Shown here piece after piece: positions 1,724-41,131 of a stretch of DNA of 44,698 nt; position 1 is the first letter of the stretch, and each line of letters opens with the position of its first letter. Under the pieces are notes generated by a model. That model had not been told where the DNA came from and did not search any database. It saw only the letters and a program-made list of their open reading frames with translations. The translations under genes and the position numbers were made by a program. This DNA comes from a virus. The stretch covers positions 1-44,698 of IMG/VR virus record IMGVR_UViG_3300043395_000523. The stretch is one strand, 5' to 3'.

Positions 1724-3505
1724 TTATCCTTCGCAACTTAAACATTCTGGGTCCATTGCTTTTGTTGCAATATCACCTCTTAATACTGATTCGGTTCTCA
1801 TATAATATAGAGTTTTAACACCTTGTTTCCAAGCCTCTAATGTTACTTGATTTATCCATTTTGGTTCTGCGATTGCAGGGAATGCTAAGTTTAACGAAAC
1901 TGCTTGGTCAATATATTGTTGTCTGATACCTGCTTGTCTTACTAAATCTAATTGATTGATTTCTTTGAATGTTTTGAATACATCTTTAACAGCAAATGTT
2001 TTATGTCTATCTTCATCGATTACCTCTGAACATAATACTACTTTACCATTTACGAAACACCAATTATCTAATTCAGATATATCTTGTATAGAACCACCAT
2101 CTGCAAGAATCTTATCCCAAGTTTCTTTTGTGTTGATTCCGGCTTTCTTTAATACCTTTTCCAATTCAGCGTTTCTTCTAATGAAAGTACCTTTTGATGT
2201 TTGTTCCGTAAATACGTTGGCTGCCCAAGGCTCAATACCAGAACTTACATCACCACTTAATTTAGAGTTAGAAACTGTTGGTGCGATTGCTCTTAGGTGA
2301 GTATTACGGAATCCACTATCTTTACACCATAATGGTTCACCCAATTCAGATGCCATATCTCTACTTGCTTGTTCCGATTCGATTTTCATTTGAGAGAAAA
2401 TCTTACGAGTTTCAAATTGAGCGGTCATACCTTCAAATGGAATACCTCTTTGTTGTAAATAAGTGTGCCATCCTAATACACCTAATCCTAATGCTCTACC
2501 TTTTTCTGCTGCACGAACTGAATTTTCAAATCCTTTCATATTCTTAGCCTTTTGGATGAACTCTGAAAGAACTCCATCTAAGAACCAAGTTGATGTATAA
2601 ATTAAATCCGTATCTTTCCACTCATCATATTTTGCTAAGTTTAAAGAACTTAAACAACAAACAAATGAATGTGATTCATCGGTATGTAAAACAATTTCAG
2701 AACAGATATTGGTCATAAACACCTTCAATCCATTTTGTTTATACATTGGTGGATTTTGTTTGTTTACATTCCCCTTAAACATAATATAAGGTTCACCTGT
2801 TGCTTTTCTTTTTTGTAAAAGTTTACCCCACTTTCTTCTTGCTTCTTCATCACCATCTTGTAACTTTCTCATAAACTTATCACCAACCACTGCACATTGG
2901 TGCATATTCAAACATTGACGATTAACATCACCTTTCGGTTCTCTAATCTCTAACCATTGTTCAAAATCTTTATGTTCGATGTTTAAGTTTACTGATGCTG
3001 CTCCTCTTCTAACTGAACCCTGATTTGTTGCAAGGATAGTAGAATCGTATATCTTAGCAAATGGTATTACACCATCTGATGTTCCATTACCTGTAATTGG
3101 TGAACCTGCTGGTCTGATTTGGTTTATACCAATACCAACACCACCACCATGTTTTGCAAGTAACATCAACTCTAAGTTTTTGTTACCAATATCGAAAATG
3201 GAATCCGCTACATCAATACCAAAACAAGATATAGGTAAACCTCTATCCGTACCTGTATTTGATAATACCGGAGTTGCCAAACATAACCAACCACGCCAGA
3301 TGTAATCGAAAAATTTTGATGCTAATTGTGGTTTATTCAAACGTTGTGCTACTTTTGTAGATACTCTCCAATATGCATCTTTGGGAGTTTCACCAGGAAG
3401 TAAGTAACCTTTGGATATAGTTTTAACATATACCTCCGTATTACCCCATTCTGGGAAATCAACACCCAATTCCCAACCTAAGTCTTCTGCGTAATTTTTT
3501 GCCAT
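1724..3505 (-). CDS. nrdA: Ribonucleoside-diphosphate reductase, large (alpha) subunit, class I
   Basis: Reduces ribonucleoside diphosphates to deoxyribonucleotides with NrdB, supplying dNTPs for phage replication. Residues visible at expected places: Cys94 in ISCFG, then Asn266/Cys268/Glu270 in NICSEI (radical cysteine and its acid/base partners), Cys283 in VCCLSSLNL (second redox cysteine), a YYMRT tyrosine pair for radical transfer near the C-terminus, and a terminal CLSC that shuttles electrons to thioredoxin. At 593 residues it is much shorter than E. coli NrdA (761) and begins right at the catalytic core, so it lacks an N-terminal ATP cone and probably escapes dATP feedback inhibition (inference). 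It sits 16 nt after nrdB and 24 nt before thioredoxin: one operon. Confidence 0.96.
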   Translation of the reverse strand: MAKNYAEDLGWELGVDFPEWGNTEVYVKTISKGYLLPGETPKDAYWRVSTKVAQRLNKPQLASKFFDYIWRGWLCLATPVLSNTGTDRGLPISCFGIDVADSIFDIGNKNLELMLLAKHGGGVGIGINQIRPAGSPITGNGTSDGVIPFAKIYDSTILATNQGSVRRGAASVNLNIEHKDFEQWLEIREPKGDVNRQCLNMHQCAVVGDKFMRKLQDGDEEARRKWGKLLQKRKATGEPYIMFKGNVNKQNPPMYKQNGLKVFMTNICSEIVLHTDESHSFVCCLSSLNLAKYDEWKDTDLIYTSTWFLDGVLSEFIQKAKNMKGFENSVRAAEKGRALGLGVLGWHTYLQQRGIPFEGMTAQFETRKIFSQMKIESEQASRDMASELGEPLWCKDSGFRNTHLRAIAPTVSNSKLSGDVSSGIEPWAANVFTEQTSKGTFIRRNAELEKVLKKAGINTKETWDKILADGGSIQDISELDNWCFVNGKVVLCSEVIDEDRHKTFAVKDVFKTFKEINQLDLVRQAGIRQQYIDQAVSLNLAFPAIAEPKWINQVTLEAWKQGVKTLYYMRTESVLRGDIATKAMDPECLSCEG

Positions 3506-3521
3506 AATTTTTTTCTAATTT

Positions 3522-4535
3522 TTAAAATATATCACCCCAATCTTCACCTTCTCCGGCTTTTGAATAATCAGTTGGTCTGATTGCGAAGAAGTCGGTGTGT
3601 GTAACACCTCCAGTTAGGTGATAGAACCAATCTAATTCAGATGCTTTTGTATCATCAAACTCAAAATAGTCATCACCACCAGGAATTGGATTGTATCCCA
3701 ATTCTCCTAATTTTTCATTAACTCTTTTTGTAATAAATTCTTTTAGGTCATCTTTTTTAAGATTTTCCAAATCACCCATTTCAAAAATTTTATCAATGTA
3801 TTTGTGTTCTAAATCTATAATGATTTTAGCTGCTGTGTAAATATCCTCTTTTGCTTCTTCTAACAATTCAGGAAACTCTTCACACATATGTCTGAATAAT
3901 TGACATCCCATTTTTGAATGTAGAGATTCATCTCTTACACTCCATTTCATTTGTTGTCCAATTCCTTTCAATAAGTTTCTCATTTGGAATGAGTAAAGAA
4001 CTGCAAATGATGAATATAGTGCAACTCCCTCTGCGAATGCAGAAAAGATTGCCAAACTTCTTGCTACTTCGATTCTGGCTTTATGATTTTTATCTAAATC
4101 ATTTGGAGTCCAATCGGCAGTTGTGTTAGTTAGAAGTTCGAAACGTGCTTTCATTGTTTCATCATGTAAGAACCCTTCGAAATCTTCTAATCCTAACGTT
4201 TCATTTAAATAAGAGTATGCGATTGAATGTATAGTTTCTTGAGAACCAAACGCCATAGCCATTTGTCTGATTTCATGTTTCGGAAACCATTTTGTAACCA
4301 TACCAGTCCAATAATCAGATACTGCACATTCGGTTTGAGCGAAACCTAAAAGAATATTACCTACTAAATGTTTTTCAGATTCAGTAAGATTTTCGTTCCA
4401 ATCCTTAACATCACCTTGCATTGGTATTTCAGTATGTAACCAAAATGCTTGCATTTGTTTTAACCAACCTTCGGTATAATATTCTGGATATTCAAATGGT
4501 TTGAAAGGAACTCTTTCAGTAAATAATTTGCTCAT
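3522..4535 (-). CDS. nrdB: Ribonucleoside-diphosphate reductase, small (beta) subunit, class I
   Basis: Carries the metal centre and tyrosyl radical for NrdA. By motif alignment the metal ligands are Glu69 (TEC), Glu100 and His103 (in SQETIHS), Glu169 (FAEGVALYSSF), and Glu203 and His206 (RDESLHS); Tyr107 occupies the radical tyrosine position (ETIHSIAY). The first ligand is Asp in E. coli (Asp84) but appears to be Glu here, as in some other class I subgroups. Length 337 is normal. It is followed by nrdA after 16 nt and preceded by the histone-like gene after 13 nt. Cytoplasmic; forms the alpha/beta complex. Confidence 0.95.
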   Translation of the reverse strand: MSKLFTERVPFKPFEYPEYYTEGWLKQMQAFWLHTEIPMQGDVKDWNENLTESEKHLVGNILLGFAQTECAVSDYWTGMVTKWFPKHEIRQMAMAFGSQETIHSIAYSYLNETLGLEDFEGFLHDETMKARFELLTNTTADWTPNDLDKNHKARIEVARSLAIFSAFAEGVALYSSFAVLYSFQMRNLLKGIGQQMKWSVRDESLHSKMGCQLFRHMCEEFPELLEEAKEDIYTAAKIIIDLEHKYIDKIFEMGDLENLKKDDLKEFITKRVNEKLGELGYNPIPGGDDYFEFDDTKASELDWFYHLTGGVTHTDFFAIRPTDYSKAGEGEDWGDIF

Positions 4536-32621: not shown

Positions 32622-35201
32622 TTACGCTCCCATTAATCCAAATCTATTTTGTGAACTTTTTTCTGATGAATTTACTACTGCAGATGAAACCTTTTCTCTA
32701 TCCATATATATGTTCTTACCACCTGCTGTAACTGCTATCAATTCATCCAATTTTTCTATAATTCGATTACTACCATTAATAGTACCCATAGCACTACCCG
32801 CTGCGTTACTTATTGTATTTAAAAGTCCACCCAACCCACCATCGGTAGCAACTGAATTAGCTAATGCCGATGGATTTTTTGTTGCTATTAAAGTATCTGA
32901 TGGATTCGTTGTTATTACTTTACCATTTTGTATCACACCATCATTAACCGAATCAGTTGGTGGAGTTTGACCAGCAGATTCCGGTGCACCACCTCCTAAA
33001 ACTGAACCTATGCTCTGAATAACACTTCCGATACCGCCTACAAAATTATTTATAGGGTCTATTAGGTATTTATGCATCCATACACCTAAATCTGAAAATA
33101 TAGTAAAGAACCCTTCTAAATAATCCATTACCGCATTAAATCCTGCAATCCACGGTTTAAACATTAATGATACGATACCATCACCAATTTGTGATAATCC
33201 ACCTATAAAATCACCTTTAAATAATTTAATAAGACCTCCGAAAATATCAACAAATCCACTAAGTACTGCTATACTCGTTTCTATTGCTACCACAATCCCA
33301 GTATAAAATAATGATGTAATAAAACCAACAACTTCACCAATTTTTTCAAATATTTTAAATAATCCATTAGATGAACCCATCATTTTAGATAATGGTGCAA
33401 AAGCTTTAGATAAGTGGTCAAATATACTATTTATGATTGCCATAAATGGTTTTAAGAATCCACTAATCAATCCACCAACTATTTGCATAATTGGTCCTAA
33501 TGCTTTCATTATTGTAATTCCAACTGGCATAAACGCCATTAACAATTCATTTCCAATAGCTGCAAGTTGATTACCTGCAGTATCAAAATCCGATTGCATT
33601 TCCTGTTGTAAAGCCAATTCTTTGGTTTTTGCTGCCAAATCTGCTTTATTCATTTTATTAATATCACCACCAGTCTTTAACACCTGCATTGCAGTTGCTA
33701 ATTCTTCTTCTCCCAATTTACCAAAACGTTCTCTGATTCTTTGTTGATTTATTAAAGATTCTAATGACATGCCAGTTGCGTTGGTAAGTGCATCTTGTTC
33801 GAATTTGTTTAATTTTGTTAAATCTCCTAATGATGCAACCTGGTCTACAACTGCTTGTTGTGATTCTAATATCTTTCCATTAGCTGCTAAATATCTTGCT
33901 TGACCTAAATTGATATTAGTACCTAATATTGCACTTGCTTCTAATTCAGAAGTAATACTATTTTGAAAATCTAATAAATTATCAGCTACTTTACCTGCTT
34001 CACCAATTGATGTTCCTAATTTAGCTGCTTGAACTGCTGCTTTAGCAAGTTGTTCTGGAGAACCCTGAAAATATCTATACGCATATTCAGAATTATCCGC
34101 CATATCTTTAATAACTTGACTAGGAGCTACCTTAGCAAGTCTTGCCATAGATACAGTTTGTGAAATTAGATATTGTGATTGTTCCGCAGATAATCCACCA
34201 ATATTTTGGAATATTTTATTTAATTTAGCACCTTCTTCAACCCCAACACCAAAGTTTTTATTCAATGTTACCATTGATGTTAAAACTTCATCCGATGCCA
34301 TTTCTATATTGTTAAATTCACCAGTAAATGTAGATGCTGCTTCTGAAATATCGTCTAATGATGCACCTAATGCAGAAGTTTTACCCAACACACTAACCAT
34401 TTGTTTATCTAATCCAGCAGTTTGTGAATTTAATAAACCAGTTTCCTCTCTAAACGCTTTAGCTGCAGATGATACTTTGTAAAATGCAATTACACCAGCT
34501 GCTGCAGTTGCAACTATTGCTGCTCCAATTAAAACATATGGATTTGCAAGTATTGCTAATGATTCTGCTAATCCTGCAGATGCACCGGATAAAGATTGCA
34601 TTACAGTTTTACCTTCACGCAATCCACTAGCAAATTGTGTAGTAAAATTCTTAGCTGCATTAGATAATTTTTCTTTTAATAGTTTAGTTCCAATATCACC
34701 CAACCCACCCAACAGTTTACCAATTACTGGTATTTCTTTTACATCTTCTACTAATCCATCAAATATACCACCCATAGTTTCAGATAATTTGGTTGCTGCC
34801 TCATTTACTTTTTCTATGGTATGTAATCTACCTTGTTCTATATTTAAACCATCTCTAGTTCGTTGTAATTGTTCTAATAAAATAGCATTTGCTCTATCTG
34901 AAAGGTTGTAAAAATTACTACTTAATTTTTCCTTTTCTTTATCAATATCTACTAATTTTTTACTAATTTCTTCTGATGATTCTAATTCTGATACCGATGA
35001 TTTTAAATTAGTTAAATAATCTTTAGCCTTTTCGCTTAAACGTGAATGACCTTTAATGGTATCATCGATACCATCGGTAAGATTTTTACTCATAGATGAA
35101 GACAATTTAAGAGCTTCATTATATTCAGTTTGTAATCTAATGTTCTCTTTTTGTTGTTCAGCTAATTGTCTAGCTATTTTATCTGGTCTTGATTCAGCCA
35201 T
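32622..35201 (-). CDS. Tail tape measure protein (859 aa)
   Basis: Long helical protein: N-terminal coiled coils (residues 1-140, heptad-like Leu/Lys/Glu), a glycine/alanine-rich hydrophobic segment around 210-240 (LIGAAIVATAAAGVIAFY), and more hydrophobic helices around 560-680 (ITIMKALGPIMQIVGGLISG, VAIETSIAVLSGFVDIFGGL). This mix is diagnostic of tape measure proteins, which set tail length and insert into the host membrane at DNA injection. The position after the chaperone-like genes and before the baseplate genes is the usual one. If ~1.5 angstrom per residue holds, the tail would be about 130 nm (inference). Confidence 0.86.
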   Translation of the reverse strand: MAESRPDKIARQLAEQQKENIRLQTEYNEALKLSSSMSKNLTDGIDDTIKGHSRLSEKAKDYLTNLKSSVSELESSEEISKKLVDIDKEKEKLSSNFYNLSDRANAILLEQLQRTRDGLNIEQGRLHTIEKVNEAATKLSETMGGIFDGLVEDVKEIPVIGKLLGGLGDIGTKLLKEKLSNAAKNFTTQFASGLREGKTVMQSLSGASAGLAESLAILANPYVLIGAAIVATAAAGVIAFYKVSSAAKAFREETGLLNSQTAGLDKQMVSVLGKTSALGASLDDISEAASTFTGEFNNIEMASDEVLTSMVTLNKNFGVGVEEGAKLNKIFQNIGGLSAEQSQYLISQTVSMARLAKVAPSQVIKDMADNSEYAYRYFQGSPEQLAKAAVQAAKLGTSIGEAGKVADNLLDFQNSITSELEASAILGTNINLGQARYLAANGKILESQQAVVDQVASLGDLTKLNKFEQDALTNATGMSLESLINQQRIRERFGKLGEEELATAMQVLKTGGDINKMNKADLAAKTKELALQQEMQSDFDTAGNQLAAIGNELLMAFMPVGITIMKALGPIMQIVGGLISGFLKPFMAIINSIFDHLSKAFAPLSKMMGSSNGLFKIFEKIGEVVGFITSLFYTGIVVAIETSIAVLSGFVDIFGGLIKLFKGDFIGGLSQIGDGIVSLMFKPWIAGFNAVMDYLEGFFTIFSDLGVWMHKYLIDPINNFVGGIGSVIQSIGSVLGGGAPESAGQTPPTDSVNDGVIQNGKVITTNPSDTLIATKNPSALANSVATDGGLGGLLNTISNAAGSAMGTINGSNRIIEKLDELIAVTAGGKNIYMDREKVSSAVVNSSEKSSQNRFGLMGA

Positions 35202-35210
35202 TTACTTAAA

Positions 35211-35462
35211 TTATTTTATATTTAAAATTGCTTTGTATTCGCGTGGAATTGGTTTTCCATCTTGTTTTAACTTTTCAACTTTATCGCGAATTTGTTGCAT
35301 ATCATCATCTAATTTATTTGCTAAAGCTACAAATTCAGAATCATTTTTTAATTTATGTGCAAGTAATTTTCCAAATATATAATCAAGAACACCTTCTTTT
35401 ATAGAATGTTTTTTTGTTATAAATTCTTTTATGGATTTTTTCTTTGCTTCGGTTAATTTCAT
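35211..35462 (-). CDS. Small Lys-rich protein before tape measure (83 aa)
   Basis: The frame has ATGs at 35474 and 35462. I prefer 35462 (MKLTEAKKKSIKEF), because the earlier ATG lies only 7 nt below the promoter motif L5. The protein is helical and charged (KHSIKEGVLDYIFGKLLAHK, then a coiled-coil-like DDDMQQIRDKVEKL). Not recognised. It lies between the terminator/promoter pair at 35481-35527 and the tape measure gene, so a tail assembly role is inferred from place only. Confidence 0.65.
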   Translation of the reverse strand: MKLTEAKKKSIKEFITKKHSIKEGVLDYIFGKLLAHKLKNDSEFVALANKLDDDMQQIRDKVEKLKQDGKPIPREYKAILNIK

Positions 35463-35480
35463 AGTATTTCCCATTTATAC

Positions 35481-35500: not shown

Positions 35501-35527
35501 AAAAAAGTGAGGAAATTATTTCCTCAC
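35501..35527 (-). terminator. Rho-independent terminator overlapping the frameshift ORF stop
   Basis: A 9-bp perfect stem (35507-35515 with 35519-35527) with a 3-nt loop, followed on the minus strand by seven T (35506-35500). The loop is the TAA stop codon (35518-35516) of the frameshift extension, so coding sequence and terminator overlap. Confidence 0.88.
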
Positions 35528-35749
35528 ATTTATATTTGGACCTTTCGGTGTGTTTGATGCCTTTTGAGATTTTTTAATATTCTCTTGTTCTATTTTTTTA
35601 GCTTCAACTAATTGATTGTAGTAAAAATTCCTAAGATGAACCGGTAATTTATACACATCCATTTGAGTAAATCCATTTCCATAATAACATAATTCAAAAA
35701 TTTGTTTATGTAAAAGGACTCCATAATTAGTCGGCAGGCCAAAAAAAGT
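35516..35749 (-). CDS. Probable +1 frameshift extension of the gp26-like tail assembly protein
   Basis: A 77-codon frame, +1 relative to the 35727-36479 gene. It is closed by TGA (35752-35750) immediately before a run of seven T (35747-35741), and open from there past the zero-frame TAA (35729-35727) to 35516. There is no ATG near its beginning; the first is at codon 30. The sequence is clearly protein-like (HKQIFELCYYGNGF, then VYKLPVHLRNFYYNQLVEAK and a Lys-rich tail). Ribosomes slipping +1 on UUU UUU U before UGG would fuse it to residue ~246 of the upstream protein, giving ~320 residues. The arrangement mirrors the gpG/gpGT tail chaperones made by frameshifting upstream of tape measure genes. 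A sequencing error in the T run or an independent 48-aa gene are alternatives. Confidence 0.7.
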   Translation of the reverse strand, partial: TFFGLPTNYGVLLHKQIFELCYYGNGFTQMDVYKLPVHLRNFYYNQLVEAKKIEQENIKKSQKASNTPKGPNINVRK

Positions 35750-36479
35750 TCACGCCCATTGGTATTGAGCGTACCTCCATTTCCCCAGTTATTGGATTTT
35801 CATAATCAAATTCCATATTAACATCTGGAGTGATTTGTTTAATGGCATCTCTGAATGCTTTCGTATCTCTTGTAATGAACTTATTATTGATAAAATCGGT
35901 AATTGATTTAGTATCATCTTTACCATCAACCGATTGAATCATATAACGATAACGAGTTGTCAATTCAGATGATGTACCATTTTTATTTAATCTTTGCATT
36001 GCTTTAACATCTGCATCAATTGCTTTTTCATCACCATGTGTAAGAATTTTGAATTCCAATTCACTACCTGTTGATGTTTTAAATTTATAACGATTATTTC
36101 TATTTAATTTAGTTAAATCAATTTCTTTTGTTTTAACTTTACCTAAATCAATTGAAATTTCTTCTTTTTCCTCTTCGGTTGCAATTTCAATTTTATATTC
36201 TGGTCCATATCCTAAAATACGTGTTGCTAACATAATAGCATTCTTATCACCTAATATAATATCATCAGGGTTGATGTTTTTATCCACGATAATCGACTCA
36301 AATAATTTATCTAACACAATACCTTTCTTAATCAAATTTTGTGATGTAAGGATTTCTTCTTCCTTAGCTGTCATATATTTGATTTCAATTGTACCTTTTG
36401 ATAATGGATTTGTTTCTGGATAACATTTACCTTCGGATGGTAATGTTATAACTTCGGTTGGAAATGTATTCTCACTCAT
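35727..36479 (-). CDS. T4 gp26-like baseplate/tail assembly protein (zero-frame product)
   Basis: 250 residues. The N-terminus FPTEVITLPSEGKCYPETNP with IEIKYMTAKEEEILTSQNLI is the conserved opening of T4 gp26-type baseplate assembly proteins, followed by DKLFESIIVD and RYKFKTSTGSELEFKILTHG. It ends VNFFWPAD. Gene order (tube, this gene, then tape measure) is that of tail assembly chaperones. The last codons contain a T7 run after which a +1 frame stays open for 74 further codons, so two products may be made. A late-type promoter motif L4 and a terminator for the upstream tube gene lie just before it. Confidence 0.78.
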   Translation of the reverse strand: MSENTFPTEVITLPSEGKCYPETNPLSKGTIEIKYMTAKEEEILTSQNLIKKGIVLDKLFESIIVDKNINPDDIILGDKNAIMLATRILGYGPEYKIEIATEEEKEEISIDLGKVKTKEIDLTKLNRNNRYKFKTSTGSELEFKILTHGDEKAIDADVKAMQRLNKNGTSSELTTRYRYMIQSVDGKDDTKSITDFINNKFITRDTKAFRDAIKQITPDVNMEFDYENPITGEMEVRSIPMGVNFFWPAD

Positions 36480-36588: not shown

Positions 36589-37080
36589 TTAGAATTCTAA
36601 GATTGCGTAATCATATGCTAATGTTAAAGTAATATCAGCAGGGTCTGTTGCATTTGACCAATCTAAGTCATTAAATGTTGCATTTGTGATAAACGCACCT
36701 TTCAATGTCCATTGTTCGATTTTATCACCTACTGGCCCTAACATATAAATTTGAATATCTTTTTTGTAGAACTCAGCGTAACCATCACGACCTGTTAAAG
36801 ATTCGTGTGATAAACGTACCCACTCCATTACTGCTTGAGCACCTGATGGAACGATTGGGTCAAATAGAGTGATTTCAATATCTTGCCACTCACCTTTACC
36901 TTTCAACTTTCTTTTTACGTTGATATGGTCTAATGTTACAGTTTCAAATTGAATTGAAGGTCTATTTGCTGCTTTTACAAGATATGATGGAATACCAGCG
37001 ATGTCCAAAATGAAACGATGTTTCATCTTTGGTTCAAAATTGGTATAGAACATGTCGTTAAACTCTAATACTTCTGCCAT
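36589..37080 (-). CDS. Tail tube protein (T4 gp19-like)
   Basis: 163 residues, the length of T4 gp19. N-terminal EPKMKHRFILDIAGIPSYLV, then the KVKRKLKGKGEWQDIEITLF-like strand-turn region and C-terminal ITNATFNDLDWSNATDPADI...LAYDYAIL are typical of hexameric tube subunits with the central beta barrel. It forms the inner tube through which DNA leaves. It follows the sheath gene and ends at a strong terminator, which suggests a separate and abundant transcript. Confidence 0.93.
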   Translation of the reverse strand: MAEVLEFNDMFYTNFEPKMKHRFILDIAGIPSYLVKAANRPSIQFETVTLDHINVKRKLKGKGEWQDIEITLFDPIVPSGAQAVMEWVRLSHESLTGRDGYAEFYKKDIQIYMLGPVGDKIEQWTLKGAFITNATFNDLDWSNATDPADITLTLAYDYAILEF

Positions 37081-39859: not shown

Positions 39860-41131
39860 TTATCTAGTAAATGTTAAAGTTGTAGACCAGTTACTTTTAA
39901 GACCTTGGTCAATTGCTCTTACTCTACAATACCATGTTCCCGCAGATAATAAGGTATTTACCTCTAATCCAGTCGTACTCCATTCAGTATAATCGATTGT
40001 TAAAGTTCCAAATCCACTACTACTTGATATTTGAACATCATATGCTGTAATACCAGTTGTACCTACTGATGATGGTGCTGTCCAATCGATACGAGGTGAT
40101 GAATATGTTAATGCTGTTGGTGCTGCTGGAGCTCCAAAATCAGTAAATGAGTTTCCACCCTTATTGTGGGTAATATATCCGTTTACTAAGTAAGTATCGT
40201 TTTCTTCAACGTCAATTGAAACAATTTCAGTTGTTTCATTTTCTATTACAACCGATGTAACATCAATTTCTTCAATACCACTATCAGATGCTTTAATTAA
40301 TTTATCACCAACTTCTAATAAAAATACTTGTTTAAATTTATATTGTCCAGATTGTAAATCTTTAACTAATAAAGGGTGTTCGGATGTTGCTGTGATTTGT
40401 CCGTTATTAATACTATAATATTTACCTGTAAATGAATATACTACACCTACAACTGTTACATCTTTTTCAGTTGCATCTAATGTAGATGTTTGCCAATCAT
40501 AAAAATTATAATCAGATTCTAATCCTAATCCGTTAAGTGAATATCCTTTTAATACATCTCCTTCTTCAATCATTCCCACTTCTTTTATAGTTCCATCAGC
40601 CATCATAATTGGTGAATCAGATGTTAAACAAAGTGCTACGGAGTTACCATCGTATGAATCTACGGAATAAACTGTTTTATCTTTGTTTGTGTTATATCCA
40701 GTTGCGTGGTCATTAAATCCATCGTTAAATACACATCTAATTGTATGTGATTGAACTGATTGTAATACTGTTTGTGCAGAAGGTGCTTGTGGATTCATTG
40801 TTCCAACACTAAATGTACATGATATACCACTATTAGTTCCTACTGATAAATAAGAACCTGCAGGTACGCTCCAAGTGAAATTTCCTGCTCTGCCACTAAT
40901 TCTACTAAAATTAGCACCATCACCACTAACACCTAATGTATAAGTTTCACTAGTCCCTTCTACTGCGTAAGTATATCCACTAAGAGAACCAACTGAATCA
41001 ATAGCAAATGAAGACATTGCAATTGGACCAGTTGTATTACCTTTTGCTGCAGATAAAGATTTTGTACTTTGTCCTGTAGCAGATGCTAAACCATTTAAAC
41101 TTAATGTATTTCCAGATGTTAATGTTGCCAT
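39860..41131 (-). CDS. Virion-type protein with embedded Hint (intein-like) domain and fibronectin III-like domain
   Basis: 423 residues in three parts. Residues 1-167 are a beta-rich, Ser/Gly/Thr-rich region of fibre type. Residues 168-323 form a Hint domain: Cys168 begins block A (CLTSDSPIMMADGT), Thr249-His252 is the block B TxxH (ATSEHPLLV), and the end is YLVNGYITHN with His322-Asn323. The residue after Asn is Lys324 (KGG), not Cys, Ser or Thr, so normal protein splicing should not occur; bacterial intein-like domains of this kind cleave or cross-link instead. Residues 333-423 resemble a fibronectin type III domain (APAAPTALTYSS...IDWTAP, ITAYDVQISSS, GTWYCRVRAID). The protein lies between fibre genes and sheath, so it is probably a virion surface protein (inference). 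Confidence 0.85.
   Translation of the reverse strand: MATLTSGNTLSLNGLASATGQSTKSLSAAKGNTTGPIAMSSFAIDSVGSLSGYTYAVEGTSETYTLGVSGDGANFSRISGRAGNFTWSVPAGSYLSVGTNSGISCTFSVGTMNPQAPSAQTVLQSVQSHTIRCVFNDGFNDHATGYNTNKDKTVYSVDSYDGNSVALCLTSDSPIMMADGTIKEVGMIEEGDVLKGYSLNGLGLESDYNFYDWQTSTLDATEKDVTVVGVVYSFTGKYYSINNGQITATSEHPLLVKDLQSGQYKFKQVFLLEVGDKLIKASDSGIEEIDVTSVVIENETTEIVSIDVEENDTYLVNGYITHNKGGNSFTDFGAPAAPTALTYSSPRIDWTAPSSVGTTGITAYDVQISSSSGFGTLTIDYTEWSTTGLEVNTLLSAGTWYCRVRAIDQGLKSNWSTTLTFTR

Follow-up and report, generated by a model that had tools for sequence, protein, structure and literature searches.

Probable +1 frameshifting at a conserved U7 tract in a T4 gp26/gp51-like tail assembly chaperone gene and its relatives

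INTRODUCTION

In phage lambda, the tail assembly chaperone genes G and GT are linked by a −1 frameshift at a slippery site other than the one described here, and this direction is usual but not defining for the type, as phage Mu uses −2 and HSTV-2 apparently +1 (PMC5009743). The review that collects these cases regards the HSTV-2 shift as very likely +1 and T4 as the exception to G/GT frameshifting; it also lists the Listeria phages PSA, A118, and A500, which use +1 shifts in capsid or tail-shaft genes, the PSA site being the proline codon CCC (PMC5009743). The T4 gp26/gp51 arrangement is already published. As cited in later papers, Vladimirov, Gautam, and Davidson (2022) named gp26 and gp51 (PF12322, PHROG_150) as T4-like chaperones (PMC10885494, PMC12846349), with separate short and long chaperone genes in some T4-like phages (PMC10885494) and poly-T −1 signals in T4-like phages (PMC12846349). 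Poly-T −1 frameshifts are also described in TAC genes of other myoviruses, the Vandenendeviridae and Andersonviridae (PMC12846349). No report of +1 frameshifting in this chaperone family was found in the literature searched, in which Vladimirov et al. 2022 is represented by the papers that cite it.

Outside these genes, UUU_CGN is the +1 motif of influenza A PA-X and of plant amalgaviruses (PMC5052127). In experiments with 70S ribosomes, duplexes placed upstream raised +1 and lowered −1 frameshifting, and downstream pseudoknots can have the opposite effects (PMC6321510).

RESULTS

Overlapping reading frames between the tail tube and tape measure genes

The window analyzed here is a 44,698-nt viral DNA (IMG/VR record IMGVR_UViG_3300043395_000523). 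Its zero-frame gene (36479..35727, minus strand, stop included) encodes a product of 250 aa and 28.5 kDa and ends GTG AAC TTT TTT TGG CCT GCC GAC TAA. The proposed slip site is the U7 tract at 35741..35747 (minus strand), read in the zero frame as UUU UUU U(GG), and the zero-frame UAA (35727..35729, minus strand) lies four codons past U6 of the tract. In the +1 frame, a UGA directly 5' of the slip site (35750..35752, minus strand) bars separate upstream initiation, and the ORF that follows (35516..35749, minus strand), proposed to encode a C-terminal domain entered by frameshifting, is open for 77 codons up to a TAA at 35518..35516, with its earliest ATG, GTG, or TTG at codon 30. The +1 fusion was calculated to be 320 aa and 36.7 kDa. 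The preliminary description of this locus had given the frames, the stop codons, and the U7 exactly to the single base; its UGA, its 77 open codons, and its first start at codon 30 were all found again, and its estimates of about 36 kDa for the fusion and 28 kDa for the shorter product are close to the calculated masses.

The gene order is tail sheath, tail tube (36589..37080, minus strand; Pfam Phage_T4_gp19, E value of 9.8e-10), zero-frame gene, an 87-aa ORF (35211-35474), and tape measure gene (32622..35201, minus strand; PHROG_58, E value of 9.8e-6). The locus occupies the interval from tail tube to tape measure, as genes of the lambda G/GT type do, with the 87-aa ORF separating the chaperone frames from the tape measure gene. 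The lambda-like position claimed earlier holds as to nearness to the tape measure gene but had left out this intervening ORF. Elsewhere in the window, a 423-aa structural-looking protein (39860-41131, minus strand) has a seeming Hint/intein-like segment (CLTSDSPIMMADGTIKEV...ITATSEHPLLV...TYLVNGYITHNKGG).

Relation of the predicted products to T4 gp26 and gp51

The zero-frame product matched PHROG_150, baseplate hub (E value of 1.6e-8), and its AlphaFold2 model (pLDDT 92) matched predicted hub and hub-assembly proteins of T4-like type, including a Bacillus phage SP-15 protein (E value of 1.5e-16) and Aeromonas phage gp26 (E value of 1.9e-4), in agreement with the gp26 assignment made earlier. 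Pfam PF12322 gave no match in the window and passed its cutoff in L084, L085, SP-15, LIS04, and BRock. Both T4 gp26 and T4 gp51 matched PHROG_150; since gp51 spans profile positions 13-280 and gp26 only 14-235, gp51 amounts to a gp26-like protein extended at its C terminus. The whole +1 fusion aligned to T4 gp51 including the C terminus (E value of 7e-5, with a probability of only 63%), and the C domain by itself had no significant match to gp51 (E value of 0.6). The HK97 chaperone structure (2OB9) was a weak match (rank 15, E value of 1.6, probability of 0.25, TM score of 0.39 on target), and no sequence relatives with solved structures were found. Homology and gene position together suggest that the short form is a T4 gp26-like, and the fusion a T4 gp51-like, tail assembly chaperone. 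The T4 proteins belong to the same family and likewise come in two lengths, the longer one having additional sequence at its C terminus, but T4 uses two separate genes whereas the window combines one gene with a +1 overlap, and a single N copy was found in the window and in the records of 11 of 13 relatives.

Conservation and selection of the +1 frame in relatives

When IMG/VR and GTDB genomes were scanned together with phage records, 254 loci with a complete gene end were obtained, of which 215 were unique, these and the following counts covering related sequences and not independent events. The unique loci comprised 163 in a +1 group, 51 in a −1 group, and 1 that was truncated. The C domain was in the +1 frame in 161/163 unique relatives of the +1 group, both exceptions being the duplication lineages described below, and likewise in the isolates SP-15, LIS04, GXN1, and BRock. 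Across 479 pairs from 108 loci, dN/dS was 0.11 for the +1 ORF compared with 1.11 and 1.95 for the other two frames, values that are descriptive because pairs share branches. The +1 ORF, which had been called protein-like from its appearance, is thus under purifying selection. As in the lambda G/GT type, the C-terminal part is encoded in an overlapping frame that is out of phase with the first, and the slippery site is conserved.

A conserved site at which tRNA-Phe could re-pair one base forward

Within the +1 group, the T run was exactly 7 in 145/163 sites, 8 in 2/163, and 2 to 5 in 16/163, and was never 9; elsewhere, T7 occurred once in 117,587 nt of the relatives' zero-frame sequence. The codons at the site were typically TTT TTT, then TGG (117) or TAC (42), then CCT (156). 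TTT was codon one in 159/163 and codon two in 151/163, whereas it makes up 75% of the Phe codons at other positions of these genes. All sites (163/163) have, in the zero frame, a UUU whose next base is U or C, which is the least that re-pairing of tRNA-Phe after a +1 slip requires. They include all 15 non-U7 sites (TTT CTT TGG, TTT CTA TGG, TTT CTA TTC, TTC TTT TGG, TTC TTT TAC, and TTC TTT CGT), so that at each of them tRNA-Phe can re-pair perfectly after a +1 slip. TTT CTA needs the first codon as slip codon and TTC TTT the second, and U7 allows either, the A-site codon in the window being UGG or UUU; no obvious slow A-site codon was seen at the site. The isolates read TTT TTT CAC (SP-15), TTT TTT AGT (LIS04), TTC TTT CGT (GXN1), and CTG TTT CGC (BRock).

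These data support the P-site Phe-tRNA re-pairing envisaged in the preliminary description, and it is probable that one chaperone gene is read in two ways through a +1 slip of P-site tRNA-Phe at U7. Three other triggers were rejected. The single Trp codon UGG proposed earlier is not general, because some relatives have TAC, TTC, or CGT at this position and some isolates CAC or AGT. Slippage on the Pro codon CCU was ruled out as a general mechanism, given that some sites have CCA or CCC instead and that re-pairing from CCA to CAG is impossible, as was stalling at the zero-frame stop, whose identity and distance (5 to 12 codons) vary freely.

A −2 ribosomal frameshift, in which the P-site tRNA moves back two bases on U7 and the product gains one extra Phe, would enter the same frame, and Mu makes its chaperone in this way (PMC5009743). 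Perfect −2 re-pairing is possible at 148/163 sites, and at U7 itself the sequence cannot separate −2 from +1. It is, however, impossible at the remaining 15 (for example TTT CTT TGG, TTT CTA TGG, and TTC TTT CGT), which can re-pair by +1, and in natural in-frame fusions the junction Gly is preceded by two residues, matching +1; a −2 shift is accordingly unlikely.

Transcriptional slippage, with RNA polymerase dropping one U or adding two on the T7 tract, appears more improbable still. A homopolymer does lie at the junction, but seven T is short for efficient polymerase slippage, and the run length is pinned at 7. The frame relation is unchanged at the sites with just 2 to 5 T, and T is selected against immediately before the run (see below), which matters for codon phase and not for polymerase. 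With 15 relatives unable to re-pair by −2 and carrying U runs that are too short for the polymerase to slip, the best fit is slippage of the ribosome by +1.

It is very improbable that the downstream ORF is a separate gene with an internal or nonstandard start of its own. Some +1-frame ATG, GTG, or TTG precedes the tract in 85/163 relatives, and the phage Mel-JY01 is annotated in this way; against this, no such start exists in the other 78/163 or in the window, and the conserved part starts at the tract. None of the relatives found had the downstream ORF as an independent gene with a start codon of its own, the outcome that the preliminary description had named as one that would overturn its proposal; the natural alternatives to the overlap are in-frame fusions. 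Mel-JY01 (L083, Microcystis phage), whose annotation gives the C domain as a gene of its own that begins at a TTG, has a recorded cyanobacterial host, and its chaperone groups with those of environmental-sample and Flavobacterium phages.

A sequencing or assembly error at U7, or a decayed gene whose two frames are really one, is effectively refuted by the relatives: homopolymers are a classic error site, but the frame relation is shared by well over 100 separate contigs and by isolate genomes, the zero-frame stop is kept 5 to 12 codons past the tract start, and the count of seven T in the window, flagged earlier as a possible error, is not one because 145/163 relatives have exactly seven with the same frame relation.

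Relatives with the C domain in the −1 frame

The C domains of the +1 and −1 groups are homologous (HHalign E value of 1.8e-10). Among representatives of the +1 group, the base just ahead of the run, which is the third of the preceding codon, was T in only 2/138, compared with 68 expected from the amino acids and codon usage, and G or C in 118/138, compared with 28 expected. A T at this position would make U UUU UUU, the −1 heptamer, and in the −1 group the base was T in 51/51. By sequence comparison, the two groups share a homologous U tract whose phase is one base apart, with predicted shifts in opposite directions. The +1 group also prefers G or C over A before U7, a bias against A for which avoidance of the −1 heptamer gives no explanation. 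Three large phages, XacN1 (L273, Xanthomonas phage), Atu_ph07 (L275, Agrobacterium phage), and LR756511 (L272), have the C domain, unannotated as such, in the −1 frame, where it follows U UUU UUU or U UUU UUC (XacN1 and Atu_ph07).

In a tree of 108 proteins rooted on T4, the +1 group was one clade (97/97) inside a paraphyletic −1 group. With SP-15, LIS04, BRock, XacN1, Atu_ph07, and LR756511 added, the tree showed three direction changes with a weak node (83/59), and the single +1 origin backed by the first tree was lost once these six divergent phages were included. The trees suggest that the direction of frameshifting changed at least once in this chaperone family.

Sequence elements flanking the tract

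Two putative stimulators lie upstream of U7 in the window, namely, an internal Shine-Dalgarno (SD)-like GGAGGU 26 nt 5' of U7 (35773..35778, minus strand) and a predicted hairpin, UACGCUCA-AUACCAA-UGGGCGUG, 3 nt from U7 (35751..35773, minus strand; −9.3 kcal/mol). An SD-like 5-mer was present within positions −48 to −3 in 108/138 representatives of the +1 group compared with 4/138 in a control stretch, anti-SD pairing was maximal at −31, and at codon −10, GAG made up 63/75 Glu codons, the background being 0.21. For the 32 nt 5' of U7, the mean folding energy was −7.4 kcal/mol, with 65% at or below −6 compared with 3 to 15% in control windows, and the mean z relative to synonymous shuffles with matched G and C content was −0.74 (SEM 0.09); control windows and the −1 group both had z close to 0. 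RNAalifold over all representatives gave no single consensus upstream hairpin, so the structure is a family-wide trend and not a proven helix: its stability is conserved, its register is not. No known Rfam element at the site scored above chance.

The 30 representatives without the SD had stronger downstream structure (mean of −8.1 compared with −3.1). In eight SD-less loci, one downstream helix covaries, with 97.9% of cells paired and 3/6 pairs changed on both sides, compared with at most 50% paired in slid controls. In the −1 group, structure was found downstream of the tract.

Two lineages with a duplicated chaperone gene

The two exceptional loci, L148 and L252, branch together as sisters within the +1 group (100/98). 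Their U7 is degraded, to TTCTTTT and TTTTTCT, and the first gene copy lacks the C domain, while a second, downstream gene (L148, 3253-4170; L252, 4039-4950) holds the N and C domains in one frame. The L148 second copy aligned with the predicted +1 fusion over its full length (E value of 1.4e-40); its junction reads DIFGI, where a +1 slip predicts NFFGL, and its structure model has three C-terminal helices in the C domain. Searches of whole records found a second N copy only in these two lineages, the others having one N copy with an overlapping or adjoining C domain. L148 and L252 have apparently lost the frameshift site and independently reinvented the two-gene solution of T4. Between and around its two chaperone copies, L252 also carries a 278-aa ORF with an HExxH-like motif (3207-4040, plus strand) and a GIY-YIG-like homing endonuclease ORF (about 1494-2276 in plus-strand coordinates, minus strand). 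The duplication may be connected with an invading element.

DISCUSSION

We infer that ribosomes slip at U7, in the +1 rather than the −2 direction, with an efficiency such that most would end at the zero-frame UAA and yield the 28.5-kDa short form. In the remaining fraction, the P-site tRNA-Phe on a UUU of U7 would re-pair one base forward on UUU, or on UUC in some relatives, and these ribosomes would read on in the +1 frame, so that the resulting 36.7-kDa long form would end in a helical domain. On the model of lambda G/GT, the short form may bind the tape measure protein and the C domain of the long form may recruit the tail tube.

The locus resembles lambda G/GT in its position near the tape measure gene, its overlapping frames, and two predicted products from one gene, but lambda shifts by −1 whereas here the C domain is in the +1 frame. 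HSTV-2, Mu, and the PSA/A118/A500 group likewise have frameshifts other than −1 in phage genes, but at other sites and in other gene families, and those of the PSA type are not chaperone genes. The −1 TAC sites of Vandenendeviridae and Andersonviridae differ in direction from the window; the 51 −1 relatives look like them and form a separate branch of the window's family. The proposed movement of P-site tRNA-Phe from UUU to UUY is that of UUU_CGN systems and is possible in 163/163 relatives, although CGN occupies the A site in those systems and UGG comes next in the window, inside the U7 run. Exact UUU_CGN does occur in GXN1 (L084, vB_SagM-GXN1; UUU CGU) and BRock (L274, Streptomyces phage; UUU CGC), both annotated for Gram-positive hosts.

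Escherichia coli prfB and engineered upstream hairpins (PMC6321510) share with the window a duplex-forming element 5' of the +1 site, but the window differs from prfB in that its SD is 26 nt upstream, a predicted hairpin lies between, and no stop codon is involved. The published 70S duplex results (PMC6321510) make the arrangement of upstream SD and hairpin plausible, and both may act here as stimulators. We offer the following as one tentative proposal, possible rather than probable when its parts are taken jointly. Direction would be set by the phase of the U tract relative to the codons together with the side that is structured, a 5' SD together with a hairpin whose end is about 3 nt from U7 favoring +1, and 3' structure plus a tract one base earlier favoring −1; direction would have switched at least once, and frameshifting would have been escaped by gene duplication more than once. 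If phase and structured side do set direction, the family would offer a parallel in nature to the upstream hairpins that were engineered to stimulate +1 shifts.

The −1 relatives, the duplication lineages, and the upstream SD and hairpin go beyond the preliminary description. The annotation of these genes is affected: in Immutovirus, SP-15, LIS04, and Mel-JY01, the conserved C domain is unannotated, shortened, or listed as a hypothetical gene by itself. More than 200 unique natural sites are now available for testing what decides direction on a homologous U tract. T4, held to be the exception to lambda-type G/GT frameshifting, now stands beside +1 and −1 relatives, and the chaperone family includes a second two-gene lineage that is apparently independent of that of T4.
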